From Sporolactobacillus kofuensis (GTDB lineage: Bacteria > Bacillota > Bacilli > Bacillales > Sporolactobacillaceae), in assembly GCF_024125425.1 (NCBI RefSeq), contig NZ_JAMXWN010000016.1, positions 1 through 60,784 on the forward strand: DNA of 60,784 bases, read 5' to 3'. Positions 2,693-60,745 of the stretch are shown one piece after another. A program made the position numbers and the translations under genes. The notes below the pieces were generated by a model. The model was not told where the DNA came from, ran no database searches, and saw only the letters and a list, made by a program, of their open reading frames with translations. Each line of letters begins with the position of its first letter. Position 1 is the stretch's first letter.

Positions 2693-3126
2693 TCGAATAC
2701 TTCCTTTCTATTTCTTCCTTATAAGAAAACTGAGGCACGCATAACTTTTGCCCACAATTACGTTTTCTATAATTTTCTTATTATAGCGCATTTCTAATGC
2801 TGTGCGAACCAAATCACGCGCATCGATGAGGAGACTCGCGGATTGCCCGCGGCAAGCGAGCAATCGAAGCGCAATGGATACAAATAAAAACGAGCGGTTT
2901 TTGCCTAGTGTTTACTATTCAGATGACATTCCGAGAATCGCTTGGCACATACAATTTCTAACCCGACCTCGACAATCAATACTCTAATACGTTAAAATGG
3001 ACAGTGTTTACAAGCTGTATTTCATAGAACACAGTAGAAAATATTACTGCGTCATGCGACGGATAACCGCAAGTTGATGCGAAATACTGTTGTAATGTGG
3101 AACATTATAAAATAGGAGTGGACGTC
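2693..3126. other. Intergenic region between divergent ypmS-like gene and prsA
   Basis: 434 bases without a credible gene. It holds the reverse-strand ribosome site of the upstream gene, dispersed repeat copy A (2824-2905) and the prsA leader. Short open frames here lack ribosome sites and coding character. I see no convincing promoter hexamer pair for prsA. Confidence 0.7.
2824..2905 (+). repeat. Dispersed intergenic repeat, copy A (5' part missing or diverged)
   Basis: It contains GAGGAGACTCGCGGATTGCC followed by GGCAAGCGAGCAATCGAAGC, then an A-rich stretch and a GGTTTTTGCC end. The central block is nearly identical to copy B and is recognisable in copies C, D, E and F. CGCGG and CCGCG can pair as a small stem. 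The left half seen in copies B, D and F is not recognisable here. Confidence 0.7.
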
Positions 3127-4017
3127 TTGAAGAAGCTAATGATGGTTCTAGCTGCCGTTATTGTACTCGCAAGCCTTGCAGCCTGCGGTAACGGTGGAGA
3201 TAACGCCGTTGTTGTAAAAACGAAAAGCGGCAATATTACAAAAGAAGATTTTTATAATGAATTGAAGAAAACGAATGGTGAAGCGGTACTTCAGAATCTC
3301 GTCTATGAAAAATTGCTTGAAAAAAAATATAATGTCTCGAAAAAAGCAGTCGACGCGAAATTCAATCAAGTACGCAAAACATTCTCTACTGAAGCTCAAT
3401 TCAAACAAGCACTTGCTCAAAATAATCTGACTGAAGCTCAATTTAGACGTCAGATCAAAGATTCTTTAATGATGACTAAAGCACAGCAAGACGGCGTCAA
3501 GGTTAATGATAAAGTTCTTAAAGATTACTACAATAAGAACAAGATTCAATTAACTGAACTTAAAGCAAGCCACATTTTAATCAAGAGCAAAAAGACTGCC
3601 CAGTCTGTTTTGAAAAAAGTTAAAAGTGGAGCTGACTTCGCAAAACTGGCAAAACAATACTCCATTGATACCGGATCCAAGGATAAAGGCGGCGAGCTTG
3701 GCTGGTTTAAACAATCAACAATGGTACCGGAATTCAGTAATGCAGCGATGAAACTTAAGGTTGGACAGATTAGCCCGCTTGTTTATTCCAGTACTGATGG
3801 CGGTTATCATATCATTAAACTTGAAGGAAAAAAAGATGCTTATAAAGATCTAAAATCTTCAGTTAAAGAAGCTTATCTTGCAAGCAAGGAAAAATCACAA
3901 GATGAAGTGATTAAAAGCCTGATCAAGAAAGCGGATGTTCAAGTTAAAGATAAAGAATTCAAGGACATCTTTGATAGCTCTGCAACAACATCAACTCCAA
4001 CAACTACACAGCAATAA
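3127..4017 (+). CDS. prsA: PrsA peptidyl-prolyl isomerase lipoprotein (extracellular foldase)
   Basis: Membrane-anchored parvulin-type foldase that helps exported proteins fold outside the membrane. The 296-residue product starts at TTG 3127 (AGGAG at 3114-3118) and has a lipoprotein signal MKKLMM...ASLAAC, with Cys20 as lipidation site. The PpiC domain spans roughly residues 130-235 (ASHILIKS, GGELGWF, YHIIKLEG). The tail is Thr/Ser-rich. A strong terminator follows. The position beside yhaL, yhaM and yhaN copies the B. subtilis arrangement, and a CssRS-like secretion-stress system is only a few kilobases away. Confidence 0.95.
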   Translation: MKKLMMVLAAVIVLASLAACGNGGDNAVVVKTKSGNITKEDFYNELKKTNGEAVLQNLVYEKLLEKKYNVSKKAVDAKFNQVRKTFSTEAQFKQALAQNNLTEAQFRRQIKDSLMMTKAQQDGVKVNDKVLKDYYNKNKIQLTELKASHILIKSKKTAQSVLKKVKSGADFAKLAKQYSIDTGSKDKGGELGWFKQSTMVPEFSNAAMKLKVGQISPLVYSSTDGGYHIIKLEGKKDAYKDLKSSVKEAYLASKEKSQDEVIKSLIKKADVQVKDKEFKDIFDSSATTSTPTTTQQ

Positions 4018-4020
4018 AAC

Positions 4021-4066
4021 AAAGAGCCTCAGCAAGAATCAAGTGATTCTGTTGAGGCTCTTTTTG
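4021..4066 (+). terminator. prsA terminator
   Basis: AAAGAGCCTCAGCAAGAATC pairs with GATTCTGTTGAGGCTCTTTTT; a long stem with a U tract begins right after the prsA stop. Confidence 0.92.
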
Positions 4067-4103
4067 ACAGAAAAGATAGCATAAACCTTCTTGCTCAAAA
4101 TGT

Positions 4104-4255
4104 AGCGAAGATGCGAGACGCCTACGGAATCAGGTGCCAGCGAGATCCCGCAGATCTCAGCCTGTACAAGGAAGACTCACGGTTCCATCGTGGCAAGCGA
4201 GTAATCGAATGTAATGAAGACAACATAAGGACTGGACGGCTTTTTGCCCGGTCTT
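4104..4255 (+). repeat. Dispersed intergenic repeat, copy B (long form)
   Basis: Long form: a left block (GATGCGAGACGCC, then CGAGATCCCGCAGATCTCAG), a central block (AAGACTCACGG ... GGCAAGCGAGTAATCGAA), and a right end GGACGGCTTTTTGCC. It lies in the convergent space between prsA and yhaL. The central and right blocks match copy A; the left block matches copies D and F. Confidence 0.72.
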
Positions 4256-4316
4256 TCTTTAACCACTGGGTAACCGAAACATAATCGAAACGAAAAAAGA
4301 TCCGAAAGCCTGTCAA

Positions 4317-4610
4317 TTAAGACATGGCTCTCGGATCTTTGCGGTTTCTACGACGTTCTTTTTCAGCGTCTATTCTTTTCATATACACATTACCTTGCTG
4401 TTCAACCCATTCCTCATCAAGATCCTTATCTTGCTTTGATAAGTGAAAGGCTTGATAACCGCTGAAGATAATTCCGGCTACGACCAAATACACCCACCAA
4501 GCAACACTTTCAATTTTATCAAGTATCGGACCGATCAAACCGAATTGTTGCATCATGAACAGTAAGAAAAGCAAAGCAACTGCAACCAGTGAACGTTTGG
4601 CTTGTTTCAT
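4317..4610 (-). CDS. yhaL: YhaL-family sporulation-associated membrane protein
   Basis: 97 residues with an N-terminal hydrophobic region holding two closely spaced segments (about 7-25 and 37-55), then a charged C-terminal helix (LDEEWVEQQGNVYMKRI). The family (Sporulation_YhaL) is small and has no known reaction. The location between prsA and yhaM supports the assignment. It is somewhat longer than the B. subtilis protein as I remember it. Confidence 0.78.
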   Translation of the reverse strand: MKQAKRSLVAVALLFLLFMMQQFGLIGPILDKIESVAWWVYLVVAGIIFSGYQAFHLSKQDKDLDEEWVEQQGNVYMKRIDAEKERRRNRKDPRAMS

Positions 4611-4707
4611 TGTCTCGCCTCCATCAAGCTCGATGACGTTTGTCCATCATTTGTTTTCACATAGATACTCTATGCGGGAGACAAGGCGTTTATGCTCTAT
4701 TCCGTCC

Positions 4708-5691
4708 TTAATCTTCGTTCTGGTTTATGCCACTTTCCGCTTCGCTTGAATCAAAAGATGGTCGATATAAGGAACGATTATTCATAGCAAAAATTCGTTC
4801 TGAGAATTCACCAGGACGCGTCTTACGAACTGCACGCGTCATCACATTGATCTTCGCATCCATATCATCAAGGATATGCAGGATCTCAGCTTCCTTAAAG
4901 AGCGGCGGTTTTGGACTTCCCCATTCTGGATTTTCATGATGACTAAGTACCATATGTTGTAGCAACAAAACTTCCTCTCGATCGCTAATCCCCAATTCAT
5001 CGGCCGTCTTGCCAATATTATCAATCATAATGGATATATGGCCGAGAAGATTACCAGTTAGCGTATAGCTCGTCGCTGTAACTCCGGATAACTCGACAAG
5101 CTTGCCCATATCATGAATAATGATTCCGGCATAAAGTAAATCTTTATTGATTTCCGGATACATGTTGACGACCGCTTTAGCCATATCGAGCATGCAGCAG
5201 ACATGATAGGCTAACCCTGAAAGAAAATTATGATGAATGCTCACAGCAGCAGGATATTCAAAAAAGTCTTTATGATGCTTTTTTAATAGAGCACGTGTCA
5301 AACGTTGTATAACTGGATTTTTAATCTCAAAAAGATATTGAGTAATCTTCTCATTTAGCTCATCAATAGATAATGGGGCTGCCATAACCAGGTCAGCTTT
5401 ATTAATGGCATCCTCTTCCGAAGCCGGACGAATGGTGCGGATCTTAAATTGATTTCTGCCCCTAAAGGTCGTTATGTCACCTTCAACCAAAACAACAACC
5501 CCAGGTACATAATTATTCTCATCCTCATTCGTGCTTCCCCAAAGCTTCGATTCAATGTCGCCTGTCTTATCCTGAAGCATAATCGTAAGAAAAGGTTTTC
5601 CATTACTTGCCAATCCTTTAGACACGCTTTTTATCAACAGGTATTCATGAACGTGCTCGCCTTCTTTATAAAATGCGATTCCTTTCACCAT
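4708..5691 (-). CDS. yhaM: 3'-5' exoribonuclease YhaM (OB-fold plus HD domain)
   Basis: 327 residues. The N-terminal OB fold (about 15-95; FLTIMLQDKTGDIESKLWG) binds nucleic acid, and the HD phosphohydrolase domain (about 160-285) has HHNFLSGLAYHV, IIIHDMGKLVEL and LQHMVLSHHE, giving the metal-binding histidines and aspartate. YhaM trims the 3' ends of RNA in Firmicutes. The ribosome site AAAGGAAGGG precedes ATG 5691. In B. subtilis yhaM adjoins yhaN; here a two-component system lies between them. Confidence 0.93.
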   Translation of the reverse strand: MVKGIAFYKEGEHVHEYLLIKSVSKGLASNGKPFLTIMLQDKTGDIESKLWGSTNEDENNYVPGVVVLVEGDITTFRGRNQFKIRTIRPASEEDAINKADLVMAAPLSIDELNEKITQYLFEIKNPVIQRLTRALLKKHHKDFFEYPAAVSIHHNFLSGLAYHVCCMLDMAKAVVNMYPEINKDLLYAGIIIHDMGKLVELSGVTATSYTLTGNLLGHISIMIDNIGKTADELGISDREEVLLLQHMVLSHHENPEWGSPKPPLFKEAEILHILDDMDAKINVMTRAVRKTRPGEFSERIFAMNNRSLYRPSFDSSEAESGINQNED

Positions 5692-5788
5692 GAACCCTTC
5701 CTTTCAAAATGGCGCTCTGTGCAGCCATTCTTTTCTCCATGAAAATGCACTGATTGACGGTTAGAAACACGCGTCAGTCAGGTCTTCT

Positions 5789-7183
5789 CTATTCTATCTT
5801 ATCAGATACTCCGTTTTGTTTCTCATGAGGTGGTGCAGGCAGATTCATTTCAAACGCAACACCATCAGCAATGTTCCTAACATTGATCGTACCATGATGA
5901 TTATTGGCAATTTTCTTGACAATTGCCAAACCTAAACCAAATTGACCTTTCTCGCCTTTTTGAAATGGCTCAAACATCACTTTTCGTTCATGATCCGGAA
6001 TAGGTTGCCCATCATTCCTTACGGTAATCACTGTTCTTAATGAGCCATTTCCATCAGCTTCCATCCATATATTATGAACAGCATAGCGCAAGGCATTTTC
6101 TACTAGGTTTTCAAGTACAGTCTGGAGCTGTTCCCGATCTGCATAGACGATGGTCTCGCCACCAGTGACGTGAATTTCTATTGTCGATCGCTGAACCATT
6201 AATCGTTTTCGTACGAGGCTTGCAAGTTCCCCGAAACGAATCCTAGAGTAACGCATCGCTTTGTTCCCTAATGAATCAAAACGAGTAAAATACAGTAATT
6301 TTCGAACACGTTTCTCCATTTGTTGCGATTCTCGAATGATAATGTCCATTGAATCATCCAATCCGCCTTTAGGAAAAATGCCATCCTTCACCGATTGCGC
6401 ATAGCTCTGCACGATCATAATCGGTGTTTTTAATTCGTGAGAAGCTTGTTGGAGAAACACCTTTTGTGATTGATCATAGTTTATTAAGTTGAGACGCATT
6501 TCTTCAAATTGTGCAGAAAGACGTTCAAATTCTACGTCACCTTTCCACTCAAACGGCTTCTCCCAATTCAGTTTCGAGATTTCTTTAAATCGCCTACCCA
6601 GTATATCCAGCGGACGTTTCAAATAACGTGCTAACAAGAAAGCCAAGAATAAGCTGAGAATACTCGCGAGAACAAATGTGAAAATAAGACGACTCCACAA
6701 GCTTTCTGCTAACTCATTATTATAAGTATCCCACATATATGAAATCAGATAACCATTCATTCCATCTATTCGAATGCGTCTCACAACGAAATACATTGTT
6801 GAATTATTGGTCTTAAGCGTATAGCGAGCAAGTAGACTCTTCTGATGCCCGATCTTTCGTTTCATCTTCATCAATGTGGAATGATTCAATTGTGTACGAC
6901 CGATAATCGTTTCAAATTGATTATTTACCATTAGCGTCCAAATAGAGCTGGTTGATTCATGATCATGAACTTTTGCTCCTGGATTATCAACACCATAGCC
7001 CCCGGTTAACTCTTGAAACCCCAACATCTGCTGCACTTCAATGGTTCGATAAGTATTTTCTTTTAATGTGCTTTGTATCGAGTAAGGATAGACAATGATC
7101 AGAATTATTCCGATGAGTAACTCAAGCGACGCAAAGCATATCCAGATTCGCTTCGTCAGAGTCATTTTAAAAGGTAATTTCAT
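5789..7183 (-). CDS. cssS: CssS-like sensor histidine kinase (secretion stress)
   Basis: 464-residue membrane kinase: TM1 about 13-33, extracytoplasmic sensor about 34-165, TM2 about 166-188, HAMP, then the H box SHELKTPIMIVQSYAQ around residue 250 and a HATPase domain with N and G boxes (ENLVENALRYA, GLGLAIVKKI). The phrase SYAQSVKDGIFPKG after the H box is, as I recall it, characteristic of CssS, which detects misfolded exported protein and induces HtrA-type proteases. Its start overlaps the response-regulator stop by four bases. The substrate and signal are inferred from similarity and from the nearby prsA. Confidence 0.78.
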   Translation of the reverse strand: MKLPFKMTLTKRIWICFASLELLIGIILIIVYPYSIQSTLKENTYRTIEVQQMLGFQELTGGYGVDNPGAKVHDHESTSSIWTLMVNNQFETIIGRTQLNHSTLMKMKRKIGHQKSLLARYTLKTNNSTMYFVVRRIRIDGMNGYLISYMWDTYNNELAESLWSRLIFTFVLASILSLFLAFLLARYLKRPLDILGRRFKEISKLNWEKPFEWKGDVEFERLSAQFEEMRLNLINYDQSQKVFLQQASHELKTPIMIVQSYAQSVKDGIFPKGGLDDSMDIIIRESQQMEKRVRKLLYFTRFDSLGNKAMRYSRIRFGELASLVRKRLMVQRSTIEIHVTGGETIVYADREQLQTVLENLVENALRYAVHNIWMEADGNGSLRTVITVRNDGQPIPDHERKVMFEPFQKGEKGQFGLGLAIVKKIANNHHGTINVRNIADGVAFEMNLPAPPHEKQNGVSDKIE

Positions 7184-7857
7184 GAGACAATCCTATATCC
7201 TGAGCCATAGACGGTTTCAAGTGATAAACGCCCCATTTTTCTACGAATTCGCCGAACCACGTCATCCACAGCTCGATCCGAACCTACATAATCCTCACCC
7301 CATACCTCGGTAAGAATATCTTGTCTTGATTTCGCAACATTTACATTTTCCATCAAGTAGAGTAATACATCAAATTCTTTGGTGGTCAGTTCGATGGATT
7401 GGTTTTCTTCATCAAAAACCTTTCGGCGAACGACATCAAGTTGATATTTGGAAACCACCATACGGTTTTCATGGATACCTGCCCCATAGACACGATGAAG
7501 TAGATTTTTCACTCGAATTACAAGTTCTTTTGGTAGAAAAGGCTTGGCCAGATAATCATCACTGCCCAATTCCAGTCCAAGAATTTTATCCAAATCCTGA
7601 TCTCTTGCTGAAATGAAGATTACAGGTTGTTCCGAATGATTCTCCTTAATCTTTCGAATCAAGTCATACCCCGACATACCGGGTAACATAATATCCAATA
7701 TCCATAAATGGACGCCGTTATGCATATAGTCCAACGCTTCTTCAGCTGTATGAAAAACAGAGACTTCCCATCCTTCATTCTCCAAGTACGCTTTTAGAAT
7801 GGAAGACAAACTCTCCTCATCTTCGACTAGATTAATTTTATAGTGTGTCTCAGTCAT
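7180..7857 (-). CDS. cssR: CssR-like OmpR-family response regulator
   Basis: 225 residues: receiver domain with phospho-acceptor Asp55 in HLWILDIMLPG, Lys in DDYLAKPFLP, and a C-terminal winged helix (VDDVVRRIRRKM, ETVYGSGYR). Several blocks (VIFISARDQDLD, LGLELGSDDY, KPFLPKELVIRV) are what I remember from CssR of B. subtilis, so I call it CssR rather than a generic OmpR regulator. It is co-transcribed with the kinase by a four-base overlap. Its targets are probably htrA-like genes outside the window. Confidence 0.8.
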   Translation of the reverse strand: MTETHYKINLVEDEESLSSILKAYLENEGWEVSVFHTAEEALDYMHNGVHLWILDIMLPGMSGYDLIRKIKENHSEQPVIFISARDQDLDKILGLELGSDDYLAKPFLPKELVIRVKNLLHRVYGAGIHENRMVVSKYQLDVVRRKVFDEENQSIELTTKEFDVLLYLMENVNVAKSRQDILTEVWGEDYVGSDRAVDDVVRRIRRKMGRLSLETVYGSGYRIVS

Positions 7858-7959
7858 AGTGAAATCATCCTTATTTGCAACATATTCTAAACAAATTATA
7901 GCATGCAGGCGAACTCAATAAGATAAATGAAATAAATTTCACAAAGAATACGTTCAAAA

Positions 7960-10767: not shown

Positions 10768-10776
10768 AGGTAAATG

Positions 10777-10798
10777 ACGGCTTTATGCGAATAGCCGT
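10777..10798 (-). promoter_or_regulatory. Hairpin between the yhaN Shine-Dalgarno and its start codon
   Basis: ACGGCT and AGCCGT flank a ten-base loop on the mRNA. AGGAGGTGA (10812-10804, reverse strand) lies five bases before the hairpin, and ATG lies nine bases after it. Folding would cut the SD-to-start distance from 36 to about 14 bases. Confidence 0.55.
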
Positions 10799-10826
10799 TC
10801 CGTTCACCTCCTGACATTCTTATTTA

Positions 10827-12065: not shown

Positions 12066-12145
12066 CGAATCCCTACTTCCGTATGTTCGTTTGCTTTCAT
12101 TCTATCATAGCCGATCACATGTTCTCAATTATTTCACAAGAATAC

Positions 12146-12175
12146 AAAAAAACAGCCGTAACCAACGGCTGCCTC
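12146..12175 (-). terminator. Terminator of the Cof-type phosphatase gene
   Basis: Read on the reverse strand, GCAGCCGTTGGTTACGGCTG is followed by seven T's, directly after the reverse-strand phosphatase stop. Confidence 0.85.
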
Positions 12176-12191
12176 AATAACAGTATCGTGA

Positions 12192-14450: not shown

Positions 14451-15064
14451 GAAGAAAACCTCCTAATAATAAGTGGATGTTCAAATGCTTGAACGCACTT
14501 AAGTTTGATATATGCGTATGTTTTATCTGGCGTAACTTTTCCCACCAGCGTCGAATGTATATCCGGCACTTTAAGGTTCTTCCCGCAGAAATAAAAAATT
14601 CACATATTATAAAAAGTATCAATAAAAAAGTACCACACATTGATAATCCTTTTATAATACGTGAATTATAAATGTTCCTCTTTATCATACGTTCAATCAT
14701 AAAATTTAGACCTAATCGAAACAAACCAAAACCAAAAACAATAATCGGCATATTCGGCGCCGAAACAACGAAAGCCCTACCTCTCTTCCATCCTTACGGT
14801 TCCTCTGACCGAGCCAGTATGATTCAGCGCAATGTGCAATCAGCTTTTCATACTATTCGTTTCAAAGTATCTCCAAATCAACGACAGTATATTCATGAAA
14901 ACCATAAAAATCTTGTCTTTCACATTAGGTCTATTTTAGTATAGATGCTCCAATTCAAAAAGTCAAATAAGAAAAAGCCTTTTCTCATCAATTTATAAGC
15001 GCGCAAAAGTTGTATAAACACGTATATATGCTTATAATTACTTATGCATTAATGGGAGGTGGTA
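14451..15064. other. Intergenic region between divergent csp and deoR genes
   Basis: About 610 AT-rich bases. The left part is probably the csp promoter and long mRNA leader. At 15010-15038 there is a good forward promoter (listed separately). Open frames of up to about 109 codons occur on both strands, but they lack ribosome sites and have no protein-like composition, so I do not call genes. Confidence 0.6.
15010..15038 (+). promoter_or_regulatory. Promoter of the deoR-HAD operon
   Basis: TTGTAT, 17-base spacer, TATAAT, located 27 bases before the deoR start and matching the sigma-A consensus spacing. Confidence 0.65.
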
Positions 15065-22232: not shown

Positions 22233-23126
22233 GTGACTGAAAACCTCTCTACCGAAAGCCGAAATCAGAACACGATGAACCTCGACACCATGTCCCTGCA
22301 TGAATTATTAGCATTAATGAATCATGAAGATCAAACCGTACCTCTAGCCATTCAAAAATCGCTACCAGCGATTAAAAAAGCTGTCGAATGCGTGGTTTCC
22401 TCATTCCAAGCAGGAGGCAGGTTAATCTACATAGGTGCGGGTACAAGTGGAAGACTCGGTGTTCTCGACGCATCGGAATGTCTGCCTACATTCAGCGTTT
22501 CTACACGGATGGTGAAAGGGATCATTGCTGGTGGAGAAAAGGCATTGACGACGGCTATCGAAGGCGCAGAGGATAACGAGAAACTGGGAGGTGAAGATCT
22601 ACAGAGACAAGCGATCAGTAAATTGGATACTGTTATCGGTATCGCTGCTAGTGGGCGAACACCCTATGTGATTGGCGGACTTAATTATGCACGAAGCCAA
22701 GGAGCAAAAACGATAAGTCTTGCCTGTAATACGCACGCAGAAATTAGTCACGATGCAGATGTCGCTATTGAAATTGAAACAGGTCCAGAAGTGCTGACAG
22801 GCTCAACGCGACTAAAAGCCGGTACCGCTCAGAAACTGGTCCTTAATATGATTTCCACTGCAGCCATGGTTCAGATTGGAAAAGTTTACGGAAATTTAAT
22901 GGTAGACCTGCAGCCATCGAATAAAAAGTTGATCGAGCGATCGAAGCGCATCATTATGCAGGCTACGGGTTGCGCTTTTGAAACGGCGCAGCATCAATTT
23001 GAAGATGCGCATCACAATGTTAAAGCTGCTATCGTCATGATCTTACTTAATTGTTCCTATGAAAATGCGATTGATCAATTACACGAAGCAAAGGGCTTTA
23101 TTCGAAAAACCTTGAAGGAGGAATGA
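22233..23126 (+). CDS. murQ: N-acetylmuramic acid 6-phosphate etherase
   Basis: 297 residues from GTG 22233 (AAAAGG upstream). SIS-fold lyase that removes the D-lactyl ether from MurNAc-6-phosphate to give GlcNAc-6-phosphate. The signature GAGTSGRLGVLDASECLPT is present, as are the IEGAEDN and RLKAGTAQKLVLNM blocks, and length is normal. It overlaps murP by four bases (ATGA), showing tight translational coupling. Its place after murR fits cell-wall sugar recycling. Confidence 0.96.
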   Translation: MTENLSTESRNQNTMNLDTMSLHELLALMNHEDQTVPLAIQKSLPAIKKAVECVVSSFQAGGRLIYIGAGTSGRLGVLDASECLPTFSVSTRMVKGIIAGGEKALTTAIEGAEDNEKLGGEDLQRQAISKLDTVIGIAASGRTPYVIGGLNYARSQGAKTISLACNTHAEISHDADVAIEIETGPEVLTGSTRLKAGTAQKLVLNMISTAAMVQIGKVYGNLMVDLQPSNKKLIERSKRIIMQATGCAFETAQHQFEDAHHNVKAAIVMILLNCSYENAIDQLHEAKGFIRKTLKEE

Positions 23127-27365: not shown

Positions 27366-27407
27366 AAAAAAATAAGGCAAGCCAACATGTGCTGGTTGCC
27401 TTATTTC
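27366..27407 (-). terminator. Terminator of the moxR-DUF58-transglutaminase operon
   Basis: On the reverse strand AATAAGGCAACCAGCACATG is complemented by the following CATGTTGGCTTGCCTTATT, then eight T's. It lies about 230 bases after the operon's last stop, beyond repeat copy C. Confidence 0.85.
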
Positions 27408-27430
27408 TACGAAAAAAAGCTGGGAAAAAA

Positions 27431-27500
27431 ACGCTCAATCCTTACTTTGAATCCATTATGTTTCGATTACTCTCTTGCCGCAAGCGTCTCGCATCATCGC
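27431..27500 (-). repeat. Dispersed intergenic repeat, copy C (short, internally deleted form)
   Basis: Read on the reverse strand, GATGCGAGACGC (the start of long copy B) is fused directly to TTGCGGCAAGAGAGTAATCG (the right part of copies A and B), followed by AATGGATTCAAAGTAAGGA and a GCGTTTTTTT end. About 75 bases present in copy B are absent. Confidence 0.68.
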
Positions 27501-35989: not shown

Positions 35990-36105
35990 CTCTTATAAAG
36001 AGTGGCGGAGGGACTGGCCCAATGAAGCCCGGCAACCTTTCATTTCTAATGAAAAGGTGCTAATTCCAGCAAGATCTCATCTCAAGAGGTCTTGAAAGAT
36101 AAGAG
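35990..36105 (+). ncRNA. SAM-I riboswitch (S-box) aptamer
   Basis: Canonical layout: P1 strands CTCTTAT (35990-35996) and ATAAGAG (36099-36105), core GGAGGGACTGGCCC, then TGAAGCCCGGCAACC, and the P3 hairpin CCTTTCATTTCTAATGAAAAGG. It binds S-adenosylmethionine and turns off the downstream metE by favouring the terminator at 36123-36158. Confidence 0.96.
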
Positions 36106-50494: not shown

Positions 50495-50553
50495 TTGAAT
50501 TCCCCGCTTTGTATGGTATCGTTACAGCCTACGCGAGGTCATTCCAGAATATG

Positions 50554-51944: not shown

Positions 51945-51986
51945 AATACATTTATTTGTAGAGAAATTTCGATTAGGGGGAGAAAA

Positions 51987-52232: not shown

Positions 52233-52243
52233 CCAAGAGACGC

Positions 52244-52275
52244 AAACAGCGCAGTGAGTACTCACTGCGCTGTTT
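52244..52275. terminator. Perfect palindromic bidirectional terminator
   Basis: AAACAGCGCAGTGAGT is directly followed by its exact reverse complement, between convergent genes. Confidence 0.9.
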
Positions 52276-52288
52276 CTATAACCGTTCT

Positions 52289-53215: not shown

Positions 53216-53251
53216 TTCTTCCCCCGCTCACTTCTTTTCCTTCCGGACAGT

Positions 53252-53282
53252 AAAAGCGACCACACCTGTCAATGGGTCGCTT
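53252..53282 (-). terminator. Terminator-like hairpin downstream of the Fnr-like gene
   Basis: AAGCGACC ... GGTCGCTT with a short T run on the reverse strand. It lies beyond repeat copy D and could end the Fnr-like transcript. Confidence 0.6.
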
Positions 53283-53385
53283 CGTAGAAACCTGGCGTAG
53301 CCAAGTCCTGAATTCTATTATACTAAATTCAAACTTTCTTTGTTACCTAGTGATGCGCACAGTATCGAGTAACTTTTTCTCGGTT

Positions 53386-53482
53386 GGAGCTTTCGATGCT
53401 CGCTTCTCGTGGGCGATCCGTGAGCCTCCTCGGTCAACCATGCTATCTGCCGGGTCTCACTTGGCTCGCGCTCCCACAGTCA
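53386..53482 (-). repeat. Dispersed intergenic repeat, copy D (long form)
   Basis: Read on the reverse strand: GGGAGCGCGAGCCAAGTGAG, then ACCCGGCAGA, ACCGAGGAGGCTCACGGATC and AGAAGCGAGCATCGAAAGC. Order and spacing of blocks match copies B and F. Confidence 0.68.
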
Positions 53483-53488
53483 ACTGCA

Positions 53489-54211
53489 TTATAATCGGCA
53501 AATGTTCAGTGGACAACGATCCTCGCAATGACAAATTTCTTTAATATACTTCAAGTCTTTGATCACAATCGACCCATGATAATAGTCGATGGCGCCATCA
53601 TTCTTCCACGATTGCAACATGCGATTCACCGTTTCACGTGTCGAGCCAATTAATTGAGCCAGATCGGAATTTGTTAAACTAATCGTATAGTGAATGCCAT
53701 CCTCTTCCGTTTTGCTGTATCCATGAAGCATGCGAAGTAGCGTTGATGCGAGTGCTCCATTCTTACCATAGAAAAGCAAATCACGCATTTTGACTTGAGT
53801 GAATTGCCCCATCATGCCAATCCATTTCATGAATTCAAAGGATAGACTTGAATTCGTAAGTAGTTGCGGCTCAAGATCCTTCTCTGAAATCAAGCCGATC
53901 GTACACTCTGTTACTGCAGTTGCTGTATAAGCACACTCCATGCTCCCCAAACAACTGATCTCACCAAATAAGTCCCCGTCCATGAAATAGTGAAGCACGA
54001 GATCTCTTCCATCGTAAGCCGATTTGAATACTTTCACACGACCGCTAATCACAAAGAAAAGCTTGTCGGAATGATCGCCTTCCCAAAAAATATTCGAACC
54101 TTTTTTGAAAGTCGTCTCAGTCATCATCGATTTCAGCGTCTGCAAACTCTGTCGTGAAAACATGCATGTATTGTTCAATCCGTCCTGTTTCAAGCAAGCG
54201 ACTTCTTCCAT
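53489..54211 (-). CDS. Crp/Fnr-family regulator with C-terminal cysteine cluster
   Basis: 240 residues: cyclic-nucleotide-binding-like beta barrel (about 35-145), dimer helix, and HTH with recognition helix GSTRETVNRMLQSW. The last 15 residues hold four cysteines, CHCEDRCPLNIC, reminiscent of the C-terminal [4Fe-4S] ligands of Bacillus Fnr, so it could sense oxygen. I use ATG 54211. Possible targets include anaerobic genes such as pflB, but I found no clear TGTGA-n6-TCACA site in this window. Repeat copy D follows the stop. Confidence 0.85.
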   Translation of the reverse strand: MEEVACLKQDGLNNTCMFSRQSLQTLKSMMTETTFKKGSNIFWEGDHSDKLFFVISGRVKVFKSAYDGRDLVLHYFMDGDLFGEISCLGSMECAYTATAVTECTIGLISEKDLEPQLLTNSSLSFEFMKWIGMMGQFTQVKMRDLLFYGKNGALASTLLRMLHGYSKTEEDGIHYTISLTNSDLAQLIGSTRETVNRMLQSWKNDGAIDYYHGSIVIKDLKYIKEICHCEDRCPLNICRL

Positions 54212-54434
54212 AGCATTCACGCCCTTATCATTCAATAACCCTTTTCTTTCATTATACAAGAGGAATCCTTAATTTTTTCTCGAAAGTGTGACGAAAATCA
54301 TACACCTGAGCCAATCGGATTTGCGTTGATGGTAAAATTTCGTTTCTCGTTTGAATCGAGCAAGAAACGGTCATGTTATAATAGGAACAGTACGTTGCAT
54401 GAACGACGATGAACGTTAGAAAGAAGGAAATCAT

Positions 54435-55295
54435 TTGGCAGAGCTTATCGCCGGAACAGTTGCCGAACTTGAAGTTTCACATAAGGCACCTTTCGGCTAT
54501 TTTCTTACCGATGGCAATCAAGAAGTGTTGCTGCACGACAATGATGTGACCGGCAAACTTACTGAGAAGGAAAAGGCGACCGTATTTCTTTATCAAGATC
54601 ATCAGGGCAGACTTGCGGCAACGATGACCATTCCTGAAATTACGATGAGCACTTTTGGCTGGGCAACCGCCGTCACATTAAGGAAGAAATATGGGGTTTT
54701 CGTCGACATTGGGATCAGTAAAGATATTTTACTCTCAAAAGATGATCTCCCTGATGAATGGTTCTACTGGCCACAGCCTGGAGACAAGATCTACTGCAGC
54801 CTGAAGTTTGACAAAAAGCAGCGGTTATTCGCCAGACTAGCTGACGAGACGGTAATCAATACATTGTCCGTACCGGCACCTGCTGAATTACGGAATAAAA
54901 ATGTTCAGGCAAAAGTTTATCGCCTGCTCCTAAACGGTGCGCATGTTCTGACCGACGAAGGGTACATTGGATTCATCCATCAATCCGAAACAACCGATCG
55001 TCTGCGTGTCGGAGAAGCAGTGGAATGTCGCGTTATTGCTGTTAAGGAAAATGGAACGTTGAATCTTTCCATGCGTCCAAGAAGCTACGAGACAATTGAT
55101 CAGAATGTGGACAAGATTGTGTCCTACATGGAAAGTCGCGACGGCGCCATGCCTTATTGGGACAAGAGCCTACCCGAAGATATCAAACAGCGCTTTGACA
55201 TCAGCAAAGGCGACTTTAAGAAAGCACTCGGTCAATTAATGAAAGAAGGAAAACTCGATCAGAAAGACGGATGGAGTTATTTGAAACAAGAGTGA
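54435..55295 (+). CDS. cvfB: CvfB-family S1 RNA-binding protein
   Basis: 286 residues from TTG 54435 (AGAAGGAAA upstream). Three S1-like domains (about 1-65, 70-140 and 145-215; KYGVFVDIGISKDILL and GYIGFIHQSETTDRL are typical strands) and a C-terminal winged helix (DISKGDFKKALGQLMKEG). CvfB influences virulence factor expression in Staphylococcus by RNA binding; in Bacillus (YitL) the role is unknown. It is monocistronic. Confidence 0.92.
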   Translation: MAELIAGTVAELEVSHKAPFGYFLTDGNQEVLLHDNDVTGKLTEKEKATVFLYQDHQGRLAATMTIPEITMSTFGWATAVTLRKKYGVFVDIGISKDILLSKDDLPDEWFYWPQPGDKIYCSLKFDKKQRLFARLADETVINTLSVPAPAELRNKNVQAKVYRLLLNGAHVLTDEGYIGFIHQSETTDRLRVGEAVECRVIAVKENGTLNLSMRPRSYETIDQNVDKIVSYMESRDGAMPYWDKSLPEDIKQRFDISKGDFKKALGQLMKEGKLDQKDGWSYLKQE

Positions 55296-55311
55296 ATTGT
55301 AGGAGAAAATT

Positions 55312-55358
55312 GAGGTTGTCTCATCATCGAAACCGATGGATGACACAGCCTCTTTTTC
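55312..55358 (+). terminator. cvfB terminator
   Basis: GAGGTTGTCTCATC and GATGACACAGCCTC pair with one mismatch region, then TTTTTC. Confidence 0.82.
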
Positions 55359-55361
55359 AAT

Positions 55362-55402
55362 AAAAAAACGTGAAGAGAAAAGATCAACCTTTTCTCTCCA
55401 CG
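55362..55402 (-). terminator. znu operon terminator
   Basis: On the reverse strand CGTGGAGAGAAAAGG pairs with CTTTTCTCTTCACG, then seven T's. Confidence 0.88.
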
Positions 55403-55418
55403 CATTCATGATTCGTTT

Positions 55419-56237
55419 TCAACTTCTTGTGACCGCTGTGCGCCTGCGCTCCATAAGGCGATGATAGATCATCCCGATAAAGTAGACGATCGATACAAAG
55501 CATACGATGAAGAAGCTGACGGGGGCATTCGTATAATACCCGACCGTTAAGCCGAACCAGACACCGAGTACAGCAATCACTACAGAGAGCAGAATCATGA
55601 TAAAAATCGACTGTGTATAGAAACGAGCAGCAGCAGCCGGTATCGTCATGAGTGCGAATACGAGCAACGCGCCGACAATTTGTACGGTGACACTCACTGC
55701 AATGGCCATGAGTAGGAGAAAGCCAATCGAAATCCAGCGAATCGGCAACCCGGCCGCTTGCGCGCCTAACTGGTCAAAGGAATCGAATTTAAGCCATCGA
55801 TACCCAATCGCCAGTGCGAGAAGAACAACGATAGTGAGTATAATGATCTGTCCGACATCCTGTAAGTCGATGCCGACAACGCTACCAAACAAAATGGTCT
55901 TGGTAAAAGTCGCCTGGACATTCGATAGGGACAGAAAAAGAATACCTAGACCGAGGGCAAGGCTGAGAATCACACTCACAGAAGCATCCCGCCGAAACAT
56001 GCGAACACCGAGTTGCCCAACCCCTAACGCGCCAAGAAGTGTAAAGAGTAATAATCCAAGGAGCGGATCAATGCCGGCAAATACAGCGAAAGAGGCACCT
56101 GCGAAACCGATATGTGAAAATGTATGCGCGATAAAAGAAAGATTTCTTCCTATGATAAAAACACCAATCGCACCGCACATAATGGCGATCAACGTTCCAG
56201 CGATAAACGCATGCTGCATGAAATCGTATTGAAACAT
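55419..56237 (-). CDS. znuB: Zinc ABC transporter membrane permease
   Basis: 272 residues with about eight membrane helices, in the ABC-3 metal permease family. HTFSHIGFAGASFAVFAGID near residue 38 and ALMTIPAAAARF near residue 195 are family marks. It moves zinc across the membrane with ZnuA and ZnuC. It follows znuC by 68 bases and ends the operon. The zinc specificity comes from the upstream Zur-like boxes rather than from the sequence alone. Confidence 0.92.
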   Translation of the reverse strand: MFQYDFMQHAFIAGTLIAIMCGAIGVFIIGRNLSFIAHTFSHIGFAGASFAVFAGIDPLLGLLLFTLLGALGVGQLGVRMFRRDASVSVILSLALGLGILFLSLSNVQATFTKTILFGSVVGIDLQDVGQIIILTIVVLLALAIGYRWLKFDSFDQLGAQAAGLPIRWISIGFLLLMAIAVSVTVQIVGALLVFALMTIPAAAARFYTQSIFIMILLSVVIAVLGVWFGLTVGYYTNAPVSFFIVCFVSIVYFIGMIYHRLMERRRTAVTRS

Positions 56238-56305
56238 TCGAATGGAAACCTCCAGGCTGCAAAATGACCGGTTGATCGATCATTAGTTCTCGTTTAATTA
56301 CTTTT

Positions 56306-57079
56306 TTACTTTACCGTTTCACTGAATTGAGCATGAATCATAGGATCAACCGAGATGGTAGATTCATGATCCATTGACAGTTCGGAATGATAATAATAGT
56401 GCAACGTTTCCGGCTGATCCAAAACCTCTGTACTCTCAGCAATCTCGTAGCGTCCGGGTGCAATCAGTAATAACCGATCGGCATACTCTTTAACAAGGTG
56501 CAGATCATGGCTAATAAAGATGACCGCAACATGCCATTCTCGTGCAACTTTTTTCACAAGCTTCATCATTTCTTCTTGCGCTGCAGGATCTAGGTTTGCT
56601 GTTGATTCGTCTAAAAGCAATAAATCCGGATAACGGACAAGTGCTTGTGCGAGAAAAGCGCGCTGCCTTTCTCCACCGGACAGCTTTCCAATCGATTTCT
56701 TTGCAAAACGCAGTGTATCTGTAAATTCCATGATCTCTTTCAAGGATTTTCTTTCCTTCTTCGAAAGCCATGGCAATAATCCTGAAGACTGACCAAGAGA
56801 AATAAAGTCTTTTGTTTCGATTGGTGTCTCATCATCAATGACGCGCGATTGTGGCACATAACCAATAACCGCTTTTTTCTGATCACTTTCAATCTGTACC
56901 GAACCAGATTGGGGCTTTAATAAGCCCAAAATACATTTCAACAAGGTGGATTTTCCCGCCCCGTTTGGACCAATAACGGCAAAGAGTTCGCCCGCAGACA
57001 CATCGAGAGACAGATCTTGAAGCACGTCTTGGCCGTTAAAACTGACTTGTAAATGATCCACACGAACGTTCTTCAGCAT
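56306..57079 (-). CDS. znuC: Zinc ABC transporter ATPase
   Basis: 257 residues from ATG 57079 (AAGGGGGGAT upstream). Walker A GPNGAGKSTLLKC (about 37-49), signature LSGGERQRAFLAQAL, Walker B LLLLDESTANLD. It powers ZnuB. The gene is 26 bases after the znuA stop. The C-terminus has histidines (EHTLHYYYHSEL-like region) as in some metal ABC ATPases. Confidence 0.93.
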   Translation of the reverse strand: MLKNVRVDHLQVSFNGQDVLQDLSLDVSAGELFAVIGPNGAGKSTLLKCILGLLKPQSGSVQIESDQKKAVIGYVPQSRVIDDETPIETKDFISLGQSSGLLPWLSKKERKSLKEIMEFTDTLRFAKKSIGKLSGGERQRAFLAQALVRYPDLLLLDESTANLDPAAQEEMMKLVKKVAREWHVAVIFISHDLHLVKEYADRLLLIAPGRYEIAESTEVLDQPETLHYYYHSELSMDHESTISVDPMIHAQFSETVK

Positions 57080-57105
57080 CAAAAATCCCCCCTTGCTTCT
57101 TATCA

Positions 57106-58017
57106 TTACTTGTTTTGCGCTTTATTTATCTGAGCTAATTGATCAAGCATCCACGATTTATAATTCTTACCGGCAGGCAGTGTCTCCGTCACTTTAATGA
57201 CCGGAACGCTGTGCTTATTTGCAAGACTAACCATTTTTTCAACCGTTGGACTCATCTCTTGAGTATTCGTAACGAAGAAGGCAATCTTTTTCTTCTTAAT
57301 GTCTTGCTGCATTTGCGCGATATCCTTTGGCGAAGGATCGGATTCTTCTTCGACCGCTTGTTCAAAGTGATTATTCGCAACTTTATAGCCGAGCGCTTCA
57401 AGCATGTAATCAAACACAGGCTCGGAAACGTCAACTAATTTATTATCCGATCTTTTTCTTAGTTTTGCAACTTCTTCATTAATAGGTTTCAAGGTTGTGA
57501 TGAACGTTGCGGCATTTTCTTTATATTGATCTGCATGGGCGGAATCAATTTTGGCAAGTTGATCAGCGAGATGATGAGCAAGTGCAGGCAATGTTTCTGG
57601 TTGATACCAAAGATGTTCGTTGTCACCATTCTTCTTGTTCATCACGTCTTCACCAACACGAATCACCTGATTATCTTTCTTGTTGGATACAAGTCTTCCC
57701 ATCCAATCATCATAACCAATACCATTGTAGATCACTAGATTTGCACGACTTACTACCCGAGCGGTCTGAGGTGTTGCTTCGAAATCATGCGGATCCATGT
57801 TCGGTTTATTCAGGATCGATGTCACCGTCACATGGTTTCCTCCGACTGCTTTGGCGACTTCTCCATAGAAATCTTCAGCAGATACAATACTTATTTTCTT
57901 TGACTCTGAATTATTGCCGTTCGATGCAGACTTGCTTCCGCAGCCTGAAAGAATACCGGCGAGTAAAATCAATACGCTCATAAAAAGCGTTACCTTCAGT
58001 GAACGTCGTTTTATCAC
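57106..58017 (-). CDS. znuA: Zinc-binding lipoprotein of the ABC transporter
   Basis: 303 residues from GTG 58017 (GGAGGT ten bases upstream). Lipobox LLAGILSGC, then a cluster A-1 metal-binding fold with likely ligands His in NMDPHDFEAT, His in NEHLWYQPE and acidic residues in VEEESDP. The long His-rich loop seen in many ZnuA proteins is not obvious. First gene of the operon, with a consensus promoter and two Zur-like palindromes upstream. Confidence 0.92.
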   Translation of the reverse strand: MIKRRSLKVTLFMSVLILLAGILSGCGSKSASNGNNSESKKISIVSAEDFYGEVAKAVGGNHVTVTSILNKPNMDPHDFEATPQTARVVSRANLVIYNGIGYDDWMGRLVSNKKDNQVIRVGEDVMNKKNGDNEHLWYQPETLPALAHHLADQLAKIDSAHADQYKENAATFITTLKPINEEVAKLRKRSDNKLVDVSEPVFDYMLEALGYKVANNHFEQAVEEESDPSPKDIAQMQQDIKKKKIAFFVTNTQEMSPTVEKMVSLANKHSVPVIKVTETLPAGKNYKSWMLDQLAQINKAQNK

Positions 58018-58052
58018 GATAGTAGTAACCTCCACAAACTGATATGTATGGT

Positions 58053-58073
58053 AAAACGCAACAATTACGATTT
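58053..58073. promoter_or_regulatory. Zur-box-like palindrome 1 (znuA leader)
   Basis: The reverse strand reads AAATCGTAAT then TGTTGCGTTTT. It fits the Bacillus Zur pattern TCGTAAT-n-ATTACGA in 7 of 10 right-arm positions, with a perfect left arm. It lies just downstream of the -10. Confidence 0.65.
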
Positions 58074-58085
58074 GATCACAAAACT

Positions 58086-58106
58086 AAATAGTAACCATTG
58101 CGTTTT
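58086..58106. promoter_or_regulatory. Zur-box-like palindrome 2 within the znuA promoter
   Basis: AAATAGTAAC then CATTGCGTTTT. It overlaps the spacer and -10 of the znuA promoter, an expected place for repression. Confidence 0.6.
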
Positions 58107-58116
58107 ATTCTGTCAA
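58088..58116 (-). promoter_or_regulatory. znuA promoter
   Basis: Reverse strand: TTGACA, 17 bases, TACTAT. A near-consensus sigma-A promoter about 70 bases before the GTG start. Confidence 0.75.
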
Positions 58117-58187
58117 GCATTGCTTCTCGCATTTTATGTTCTCAATAAGTTCGAACACTCATTACTATTTTTCGATTATCTTCATTA

Positions 58188-58457
58188 TTACCAACTTGCT
58201 TTTTTCACACCAGGGATTTGGCCTTTGTAGGCATACTCACGAAAAGCAATTCGCGACATGTTAAACTTTCGCATATAGCCATGAGGGCGACCGGTTAACG
58301 GACAACGATGATGCAAGCGCGTTGGCGATGCATCACGTGGCAGTTGGGCAAGCGCGATATAATCCTTTTTTTCTTTAAGCTCGCGTCTGAGTTCCGCATA
58401 CTTAGCAACAAGCGCTTCACGCTTCAGTTCTTTAACCACTTTAGATTTTTTTGCCAT
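58188..58457 (-). CDS. rpsN: Zinc-independent 30S ribosomal protein S14 paralogue
   Basis: 89 residues, the longer cysteine-poor S14 form: only one cysteine ([14 protein letters not shown]) instead of the two CxxC pairs of the zinc-binding 61-residue form. Such copies replace zinc S14 when zinc is scarce, freeing zinc. The start ATG 58457 follows AGAAAGGA; the longer in-frame extension is leader. A Zur-like palindrome with 19 of 21 consensus bases lies 131 bases upstream of ATG, and znuACB is next door. Confidence 0.95.
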
Positions 58458-58587
58458 AACTGTATCCTTTCTTTTTTTATTTGCTTTGTTAAAATCTGCT
58501 GTTGTTATTCTTTTTTTATTGCCATGCATCTTACACATTGCCTTTGGTCAGAAAAACAATAGTAACTGTTAACAAAGTTATTTTATC

Positions 58588-58608
58588 AAATCGTAACCAT
58601 TTCGATTT
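58588..58608. promoter_or_regulatory. Zur-box-like palindrome 3 upstream of rpsN
   Basis: AAATCGTAAC then CATTTCGATTT, the best of the three, matching AAATCGTAAT-n-ATTACGATTT at all but two positions. It could also affect the divergent rpiB-like gene. Confidence 0.75.
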
Positions 58609-58749
58609 ACAATAACTATTAAAACACTATTCTTCCATCAGTGCAAGCAATCCGTGTAAGAATAGAGTGGATTGGTGACACACATTGATGAAAGAGCGCA
58701 GAATATCTATACTATACTAAGTATGAGACACAAGATGGAGGAATGCAGA

Positions 58750-59220
58750 TTGAAGATTGCAATGGCAAGTGATCATGCAGGCTATGAATTAAAAGGTGAA
58801 ATTAAGGCTTGGCTCGAAAGTGAAGGACATGAAGTCATTGATTTTGGAACAGATAGCAAAGAATCCTGTGATTTATCTGATTATGTATACCCAGCTTCTC
58901 TCGCTGTCGCAAAAGGTGAAGCCGATCGAGGCATTTTTGTTGATGGTGTCGGCTATGGGAGTGCATTAATTGCGAACCGTATCTACGGATTGAACGCAGC
59001 AGTTTGTCAGGATCCTTTCTGTGCCAAACTGGCGCGGCAACATACGGATAGCAATGTACTGTGCATCGGTGGAAAGATTATCGGTTCAGGCATAGCACTT
59101 GAAATCGTTAATGTTTGGATGCATACCGATGTGCTCAGCGGAATCGAAAAATATACGAATCGAATTAAAAAGGTTCAAGCAATTTCAGAGAAACATCTAA
59201 AAAAACTTTCTGAGATCTAA
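58750..59220 (+). CDS. RpiB/LacA/LacB-family protein without the catalytic cysteine
   Basis: 156 residues from TTG 58750 (GGAGGA six bases upstream). N-terminus IAMASDHAGYELK is typical of ribose-5-phosphate isomerase B and galactose-6-phosphate isomerase subunits. The usual CGTGIG active-site loop reads DGVGYGSALIANR, so the catalytic cysteine is replaced by Asp. Downstream blocks (AAVCQDPFCAKLARQH, LCIGGKIIGSGIALEIV) are conserved. It may be a distinct isomerase subclass or non-catalytic; I do not assign a substrate. It has a strong terminator. Confidence 0.85.
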   Translation: MKIAMASDHAGYELKGEIKAWLESEGHEVIDFGTDSKESCDLSDYVYPASLAVAKGEADRGIFVDGVGYGSALIANRIYGLNAAVCQDPFCAKLARQHTDSNVLCIGGKIIGSGIALEIVNVWMHTDVLSGIEKYTNRIKKVQAISEKHLKKLSEI

Positions 59221-59248
59221 ACCGCTAAATGAAACGTCATGAACATGC

Positions 59249-59280
59249 AACAGCCTCTTTTTTTAGAGGCTGTTTTTTTT
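59249..59280 (+). terminator. Terminator of the RpiB-like gene
   Basis: AACAGCCTCT and AGAGGCTGTT around a T-rich loop, then eight T's. Confidence 0.9.
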
Positions 59281-59302
59281 ATATATAGGCTTAGTTAAAA
59301 AA

Positions 59303-59370
59303 TCGGCTGTTGTCTTTTTATTGTTTATTGCGATGTGCTGGCTTGCTGCGGGCGTCTCTCGCATTGTATG
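59303..59370 (-). repeat. Dispersed intergenic repeat, copy E (short form)
   Basis: Reverse strand: AATGCGAGAGACGCC, then CGCAGCAAGCCAGCACATCG and an A-rich stretch ending near CAGCCGATTTTTTAAC. The architecture is the same as short copy C. Confidence 0.55.
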
Positions 59371-59604
59371 AAAACTAGTGATTCATACAATTTTAAGAAT
59401 GCCCTGCCAAAATAGTTTACATAGAAAGGTTTATCCGCCGCATTAAACCTGAAAGTAAAAAAACAACGCGGTCTCAGACTGAACCAATGATTACATTATT
59501 ACATCCTTTTTTCAAACTTAAGAACTCTGTATGACAATGCTAATCTCTGATTGAAAGGAAACGAAACTCCTATGATAACTAGTGAAAAAGGAGAGGAGAA
59601 AATC

Positions 59605-60600
59605 ATGCCCAAGGTCAGAAACAGCTACTTTGACAACGCCAAGTTCTTCTTGATTTTGCTTGTCGTGTTTGGACATAGTCTCACTAATCTTAAGTCTGAT
59701 TCGCCGGTCATCAATTCACTGTACACGTTTATTTTTATTTTCCATATGCCTGCCTTCATTCTTATTTCCGGTTTTTTCTCAAAACGTTTTAATAAGCAAG
59801 GCTACGTGAAAAATGTATTAAAGAATACACTTATTCCTTATCTCATCTTCCAGACAATCTACTCTATTTTTTATTATGCTACTGGTTACGACAAAAGATT
59901 GACACTTGATCTTATCGACCCACATTGGACCCTTTGGTTCTTGATTAGCATCCTCTGTTGGAAATTGATGATCATTCCGTTCGCCAAACTTGGCAAATGG
60001 GGTTTCCCTATCGCGGTCATGCTTGGGATCTGTGCCGGATATTTCGATATGATTGGCACGGACTACAGTGCATCACGCACGCTCGCTTTCTTCCCTTTCT
60101 TCTATCTTGGTTACTTACTCAAGAAGGAGTATTTCATGAATGTGCTCACACGTGTGCCTGTGAAAATCGCCGGATTAGCAGTCCTTGCTGGGGTATATCT
60201 TGCTTGCCGCTATCTCTTTCCGAATGACCTGCAGGATTGGGTCCTTCATGACTCCTCATACCATGCGTTCGGTTTATCGAGAACAGAAGGAAGCTTCGTT
60301 AGACTCGGAGTCTATTGTGTCACCTTGCTCACCATTTTTGCGTTCATGTCTTTAATTCCAAAAAGAAAATGCATCGTTACCGGACTTGGCAAAAATACGC
60401 TCTACATTTACCTTCTCCATGGCTTTTTCATTAAAACCTTGGTACTTTTCCCAATCTATGATCAGATTCAGAATCTTTACCAATACACATTCTTGTTCGC
60501 CGGATCCCTTGCACTTTGCTATTTACTTGCGAGTCGTCCGGTGCGATTATGTACCAAACCAATTATTGAAATGAAAATGCCGCATCTGCAACAGCAGTGA
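59605..60600 (+). CDS. Acyltransferase family 3 membrane protein
   Basis: 331 residues with about ten membrane helices. Acyltransferase-3 marks: NSYFDNAKFFLILLVVFGHS at the N-terminus, FIFHMPAFILISGFFSKRF, WTLWFLISIL and YIYLLHGFFIK near the end. Such proteins O-acylate cell-wall or membrane glycans; no fused SGNH domain is present. The start ATG 59605 has the strong SD AAAGGAGAGGAG; TTG 59551 and ATG 59572 are weaker alternatives. Confidence 0.87.
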   Translation: MPKVRNSYFDNAKFFLILLVVFGHSLTNLKSDSPVINSLYTFIFIFHMPAFILISGFFSKRFNKQGYVKNVLKNTLIPYLIFQTIYSIFYYATGYDKRLTLDLIDPHWTLWFLISILCWKLMIIPFAKLGKWGFPIAVMLGICAGYFDMIGTDYSASRTLAFFPFFYLGYLLKKEYFMNVLTRVPVKIAGLAVLAGVYLACRYLFPNDLQDWVLHDSSYHAFGLSRTEGSFVRLGVYCVTLLTIFAFMSLIPKRKCIVTGLGKNTLYIYLLHGFFIKTLVLFPIYDQIQNLYQYTFLFAGSLALCYLLASRPVRLCTKPIIEMKMPHLQQQ

Positions 60601-60644
60601 AAAACAATGTAAGAAGATGCTAGACCAAAAAGGGATCACTAACT

Positions 60645-60745
60645 ATGCTGCGCTACGGTTGCTCGCTTTTCGCGGACAATCCAGGAGCCTCTTCGGCTGA
60701 ACCAGTAAGGCTTGTGGGGTCTCCTCCAGCTCGCTCCCTGTGCGC
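60645..60745 (-). repeat. Dispersed intergenic repeat, copy F (long form)
   Basis: Reverse strand: CAGGGAGCGAGCTGGAGGAG, ACCCCACAAG, AGCCGAAGAGGCTCCTGGAT and CGAAAAGCGAGCAACCGTAG. It closely follows the block order of copies B and D, and is next to the window's right edge. Confidence 0.68.

Follow-up and report, generated by a model that had tools for sequence, protein, structure and literature searches.

Several described families of short interspersed bacterial repeats resemble, in one respect or another, the element reported here, an intergenic repeat that recurs through a 60,784-nucleotide stretch of the Sporolactobacillus kofuensis genome (contig NZ_JAMXWN010000016.1; this whole stretch is called the window). 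GC-rich repeats of what we take to be a similar kind occur in Bacillus genomes. bcr1 is reportedly specific to the Bacillus cereus group, to judge from the title of Okstad 2004; by description it is an interspersed repeat of Bacillus, comparable in size and with traits of a mobile element, and it is set apart, again by description, by that restriction, whereas the present family occurs in many genera. bcr1 is named in PMC2267715 and PMC3733652, and the relevant passage of the latter classes it with miniature inverted-repeat transposable elements (MITEs). Bhal-1 of Bacillus halodurans, presented in the portion of its source that treats it as a 74-base stem-loop family of 36 copies (Petrillo et al. 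2008, PMC2267715), could be a piece of the present family, on a comparison by description only. The pertinent sections of PMC3049150 portray BOX, RUP and SPRITE of Streptococcus pneumoniae as short, structured, non-coding, high-copy intergenic repeats of modular boxA-B-C build, 3' enriched, variable in module copy number and, according to the authors, mostly parasitic; they link mobilization of BOX and RUP to host insertion sequence (IS) elements through similar ends. Compared by description, the Bacillales repeat is likewise short, structured, intergenic, modular and 3' enriched, but it belongs to another order, and whereas S. pneumoniae has a mobilizing IS with similar ends, none was found here in a search for Y1 and RAYT transposases. 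REPs, in the excerpts of PMC3733652 that define them, are 20-40 bp hairpins, and REP and BIME families, like the present one, have many intergenic palindromic copies, some of them arrayed; the present core differs in its 108 model positions, its three nested helices and the lack of a RAYT link. A literature search, with most subscription papers outside its reach, returned no description of the family, and among the titles listed by a search with a sequence string none concerned a bacterial repeat. We place the family with the structured non-autonomous repeats, among which its order-wide conserved core and interchangeable ends make it distinct, and we consider it probable that it is a mobile interspersed repeat of the Bacillales, non-autonomous and conserved in structure.

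The family is large in its own genome. One block, GGCAAGCGAGYAATCGAA, occurs with up to two mismatches at 82 places in the 2.96 Mb assembly (51 forward, 31 reverse), against 0 + 0 for a reversed-pattern control. Of these matches, 59 had a recognizable 5' block, and after 7 internally deleted or truncated sequences had been left out, the remaining 52 formed a core alignment (A2) from which a covariance model (R1; 108 positions, 21 pairs) was built. R1 recovers at least 140 copies genome-wide at E <= 0.001, a lower bound with 150 of 532 candidates scored. The first-pass annotation, made from the window alone, had proposed a dispersed intergenic family; it is neither confined to the six copies then listed nor comparable in score to shuffled sequence. 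Copy midpoints fall inside open reading frames (ORFs) of at least 100 aa, as called by a crude caller, in 25 of the 140 cases; 24 of these 25 ORFs are shorter than 170 aa and probably spurious, and one ORF of 359 aa is overlapped at its end by a copy. No Rfam 15 match covers a repeat copy: the window at the gathering cut-off gave SAM and BsrC only, and five stretches searched at E <= 5 gave five matches, all elsewhere.

Read as a single strand, the core, of about 105-120 bases, has three nested long-range helices: an outer P1 that connects both core ends, a middle P2 that pairs GCC-T-GCGGG with CCCGC-GGC, and an inner P3 with GTGAG or GCGAG on one side and CTCAC or CTCGC on the other. The helices covary. 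In A2, 90.3% of cells are paired (88.0% when shuffled), 28 cells are two-sided (8.6 shuffled) and the covariation score is 0.168 (0.130 shuffled), values that 0 of 500 shuffles reach in each case; pairs having a two-sided change number 9 against 4.9, a level attained by 9 of 500. For 98 matches in outside loci, the corresponding figures are 93.1% against 73.1%, 353 against 99.0 two-sided cells and a score of 0.432 against 0.121 (0/500 each; slid controls <=0.054), in an alignment fitted to R1 and drawn from 76 of 120 pattern-scan loci by a pattern that fixes the GAG/CTC end of P3 and leaves P1 and P2 free; L113, three Sporolactobacillus loci and L180-L219 were left out. The fold first suggested for the repeat, CTC/GAG with inner GG/CC, is not supported: across 51 distinct rows it has 0 two-sided changes, and its covariation is no higher than in shuffles. 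A competing hairpin, TGCGGG/CCCGCA, was likewise rejected (85.4% paired, the shuffled level; 1 two-sided cell against 1.2). RNAalifold gave no structure on the raw alignment with default scoring and, with ribosum scoring, one structure per strand at similar energies. A near-constant, Shine-Dalgarno-like GAGGAGG lies on the loop side of P3, opposite ACCCCGCAG inside P3, its constancy in the outside-locus alignment being partly due to the choice of pattern.

Movement was read in relatives of Sutcliffiella horikoshii. The region L116:3800-7900 of strain CH28_1T was compared with 26 genomes (itself and 25 relatives, including biET1), and 20 loci were taken. At site 1, among 15 readable loci, the element is full in 3 (L299, L300, L301) and internally deleted in 2 (L307, L309); 9 have 20-28 nt without the element, and 1 has an unrelated 76 nt. 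The empty form is CATGTTTTC-AAAACAAATTTCC and the filled form CATGTTTTCAA-(about 142 nt)-AAACAAATTTCC, and their comparison gives no long direct repeat, with nothing evident beyond a few A's; 18 further copies, inspected by eye, have no consistent flanking direct repeat either. Insertion is favoured at site 1 because the divergent loci L310-L312 are without the element. At site 2, 11 loci have the element and 3 lack it. Its ends there are the same throughout, but three interiors occur, in 7, 1 and 3 of the loci; by eye, the interiors (L299-L309) look unrelated, and P2 and P3 pairing is kept in each. Site 2 is an exchange of whole cores as units, with the fold kept. Copies of the subfamily elsewhere in these genomes are 89-98% identical among the matches listed, many of them 91-98%. 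Within S. kofuensis, a dispersed partner spanning at least 90 nt exists for 106 of the 140 copies (nearest identity median 87%, best 95%), and of 15 congeners, S. kofuensis included, 5 have copies near the gene at 3097-4017 of the window, at varying places. The mobile-element character that the first-pass annotation had listed as one possibility is thus borne out by the empty sites, and the family shares with MITEs its non-coding nature, its interspersion (at least 140 copies in S. kofuensis) and its arrival at new sites, which some relatives have without the element (sites 1 and 2).

Distribution is order-wide. With the S. kofuensis genome counted, R1 matches were found in 46 of 58 genomes, hence in 45 of 57 relatives, and in 30 of 42 genera; 12 of the 58 genomes lack them, in a search with stricter filters and up to 67 candidates scored per genome. 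Among 119 genomes sampled from the phylum, with up to 32 candidates scored in each, only the S. kofuensis genome matched (0 of 118 others, 3 of which were of the same class). A pattern scan returned at least 120 stretches, and among those listed 117 are from Bacillales, the order being judged by names; the others come from a Gemmatimonadales metagenome-assembled genome, 'Pseudomonas sp. ISL-84' and an Arthrobacter. Twenty named genomes picked from these stretches hold from 4 to at least 150 R1 matches each, and two Sutcliffiella horikoshii strains hold 134 and 140. An initial impression that similar repeats exist in other Bacillales is therefore upheld by the relatives and the pattern scan alike. 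With one Metabacillus copy as query, 18 of 72,556 plasmid records and 0 of 50,697 phage records matched; several of the plasmid matches are one and the same zwf-gnd-pgi stretch, in which the repeat is taken as hitch-hiking. These zwf-gnd-pgi plasmids, from four genera (L293-L296), have the copy behind gnd, at about 3001-3115; next comes, in two of them (L294 and L295), a gene for a Tn3 family transposase.

Short end modules flank the core and differ among subfamilies. By eye, among the copies listed, type I combines a T/A-rich 5' module with a terminator-like 3' module, type II has other 5' modules and type III has ends like terminal inverted repeats; regular expressions assign 35, 16 and 5 S. 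kofuensis copies to these types and 84 to none of them. The type I ends there have no clear terminal inverted repeat, and ends of the GCTGTTGATT/AATCAACAGC type in Sutcliffiella relatives have the look of one by eye. Tandem duplication is observed as arrays of units of about 170-195 bp, and inner-stem deletion as copies of 40-42 nt with joined arms (L013, L017, L025, L038, L056, L064 and copy C of the window, in a count covering 100 of 119 S. kofuensis stretches). Copies at L321, L326, L328, L332, L336, L337 and L338 are, by eye, nested in larger inverted ends like GGCCACTGAAAAA / TTTTTCAGTGGCC. An extra CGGTCACGTCCTGTGACC stretch lies between P2 and P3, or replaces the 5' part, at L152:450-614 and similarly at L163, L178, L104 and L176; the copies that bear it are from Oceanobacillus, Allobacillus and Alkalibacillus.

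In the window, which was searched alone with R1 for the scores given, the copies and their modules are as follows.

2786-2870, + strand: copy A, truncated core with the 3' half well kept (18.7 bits, E 0.0035, marginal)
2871-2915, + strand: copy A, 3' module, an A-rich stretch with a T-rich end (by-eye comparison with other copies)
4022-4065, + strand: intrinsic-terminator-like hairpin and T-run (4061-4065), directly before copy B (by eye)
4066-4104, + strand: copy B, A/T-rich 5' module, resembling the 5' module of other S. kofuensis copies
4105-4211, + strand: copy B, structured core with P1, P2 and P3 (86.5 bits, E 2.3e-23)
4212-4260, + strand: copy B, 3' module, a terminator-like hairpin with a T-rich run at its end (by eye)
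27404-27459, - strand: copy C, 3' module with a T-rich end (by eye)
27460-27500, - strand: copy C, deletion form with the P2 arms joined and the inner stem gone (32.9 bits, E 2.1e-7; lacks 67 positions of the model)
53390-53495, - strand: copy D, full core with different flanking modules (74.0 bits, E 1.2e-19)
59303-59370, - strand: copy E, a possible remnant only (short blocks by eye)
60652-60762, - strand: copy F, full-length, degenerate core (36.1 bits, E 2.4e-8)

The 52 sequences from which R1 was made include copy B, whose score is therefore no independent evidence; none of A, C, D and F went into the model. Of the six copies originally listed, B, C, D and F are clear and A is marginal, and E, at best a decayed remnant, gave no R1 match at E up to 10 in the window search. 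A further match at 22578-22624 (E 0.11) is at chance level. The hairpin at 4022-4065 belongs to the co-directional upstream gene, the ORF at 3097-4017.

Genes called crudely from ORFs were used to describe the neighbours of all 140 S. kofuensis copies. Both neighbours are co-directional with the copy in 80 cases and both opposite in 7; in 25 only the upstream and in 13 only the downstream neighbour is co-directional, the other being opposite, and 15 are incomplete. The upstream gene is co-directional in 114, opposite in 22 and unknown in 4, the copies mostly lying 3' of a gene in the sense of transcription. The copies had been described as occurring on both strands, which stands, with the refinement that their orientation is non-random and follows transcription. 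On their own contigs, 117 of the 140 are on the majority strand. Replication as the cause of orientation was rejected, minority-strand copies still running along genes by 7 to 2 (small numbers, from tandem-gene sites on contigs with at least 5 copies).

Of the 140 copies, 72 are preceded, at a distance of up to 110 nt, by an intrinsic-terminator-like hairpin with a T-run: 66 of the 114 whose upstream gene is co-directional, 3 of the 22 for which it is opposite and 3 of the 4 for which it is unknown. Some of these terminators belong, in tandem arrays, to the preceding copy. The baseline is 14 of 49 ends of ORFs of at least 150 aa in the window, a shuffled control (0.6 expected) being too easy. 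Distances from the end of the T-run are 32-43 nt in 10 of 16 type I copies and 60-82 nt in 10 of 16 type II copies. Under a strict rule, 31 of 140 cores have a terminator-like hairpin within 75 nt on their 3' side.

These positions, sense-oriented and in 72 cases behind a terminator, agree in location, as distinct from function, with the idea of an mRNA-end structure. If the repeat were a host-useful RNA of mRNA 3' ends, acting as a terminator, an exonuclease barrier or a released 3' RNA and kept for the benefit of the host with spread being secondary, the 80 to 7 ratio at tandem-gene sites, the 114 co-directional upstream genes and the 31 downstream hairpins would all be expected. So would an excess of G.U over A.C cells, which is seen both in other loci (48 against 27 of 1925, p 0.020) and in S. 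kofuensis copies (194 against 145 of 2422, p 0.009). This excess leans slightly towards the sense strand but is nowhere near conclusive, because decaying copies gather both kinds alike; a yardstick of 7 tRNAs only, from ARAGORN, which favours good pairs, has 9 G.U and 0 A.C of 149. Such a host role nevertheless seems unlikely to us: placement turns over among congeners and among S. horikoshii relatives, and a 3' preference is equally expected from selection against promoter insertions. Other Bacillales, moreover, have no terminator preference (terminators at 17 of 118 elements, compared with 146 of 705 ends of genes) and a weaker sense bias than S. kofuensis, with 28 sense against 16 antisense copies at tandem-gene sites and an upstream gene that is co-directional in 52 and opposite in 22 of 83.

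The same terminator neighbourhood bears on a retro-insertion route. Group IIC introns choose terminators, and an RNA copy of the repeat could have been set behind them by a reverse transcriptase of group II intron type, in the manner of a bacterial short interspersed nuclear element. The sense-oriented S. kofuensis copies behind terminators, the RNA-like fold and an intron-like maturase fragment in that genome (L069, by eye) point this way; the absence of a terminator preference in other Bacillales and the mildness of the G.U excess point away from it. We hold this route to be very improbable.

A transposase matching the repeat, which the first-pass annotation had suggested looking for, did not emerge from the search for Y1 and RAYT proteins. 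Y1 (PF01797) occurs in 51 of 58 genomes, and the repeat is rich in hairpins, intergenic and without evident target duplication, as might be expected of a REP-type system moved by a Y1 transposase (RAYT or IS200-like) acting on a single-stranded hairpin. Y1 is, however, neither required nor adjacent: the element occurs in four genomes that gave no match to Y1 (G001, with at least 67 copies; G022, 45; G031, 22; G038, 17), and of 20 distant Y1 loci in 13 genomes that look RAYT-like by eye, only 1 has a copy nearby, at a distance of up to about 2 kb. The single Y1 match in S. kofuensis (L069:1468-1872, contig C12) is a 134 aa ORF, by eye IS200-like, seemingly frame-shifted and near the intron-maturase-like fragment, and the 3.3 kb stretch around it contains none of the repeat blocks. 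A Y1-driven origin is accordingly extremely improbable. The search for an autonomous relative consisted of loci with the 3' end pattern, which occurs at 115 places in 4 genomes; of 30 examined, 29 have an R1 core (that of L347 about 340 bases off) and L364 has none, and no long coding element was sought beyond these loci.

We therefore return to a mobile, non-autonomous repeat as the probable explanation. Copies would be inserted, mainly downstream of genes, by an enzyme supplied in trans that recognizes the folded single strand, whether DNA or RNA, and in Sporolactobacillus the accepted sites may often lie directly behind intrinsic terminators. Several points weigh against this explanation. 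The dispersed S. kofuensis copies are old, as their median identity indicates, so that recent movement is seen only in other genomes; one filled and empty site was read in detail, and a short site can also arise by deletion of a copy. No clear target duplication was seen, the G.U excess over A.C is too mild to tell the strand or to decide between RNA and DNA, and the transposase search, which covered Y1/RAYT only, found no mobilizing enzyme. A more specific proposal, which we regard as decidedly unlikely in its entirety, is an order-wide mobile element whose conserved identity is the folded core and not the ends, whose cores are exchanged as paired units, which sits behind terminators in one genus, and which is perhaps moved by an enzyme that reads the folded single strand, possibly as an RNA copy through a reverse transcriptase.

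If the interpretation as a mobile repeat is right, many Bacillales genomes carry a single folded element, missing from Rfam 15, in tens to more than 100 copies. An order-wide family would then be added to the structured bacterial repeats, with consequences for the annotation of intergenic RNAs and terminators. The sharp question would be the identity of the mobilizing enzyme, which can be put to the test in S. horikoshii relatives, with their empty sites and their near-identical copies.

Apart from the repeat, the Rfam search gave two matches in the window, a SAM riboswitch at 35990-36105 (+ strand, 92.9 bits) and, at 14755-14842 (+ strand), a stretch that scores 62.8 bits with the small RNA family BsrC, for which the cut-off is 38.

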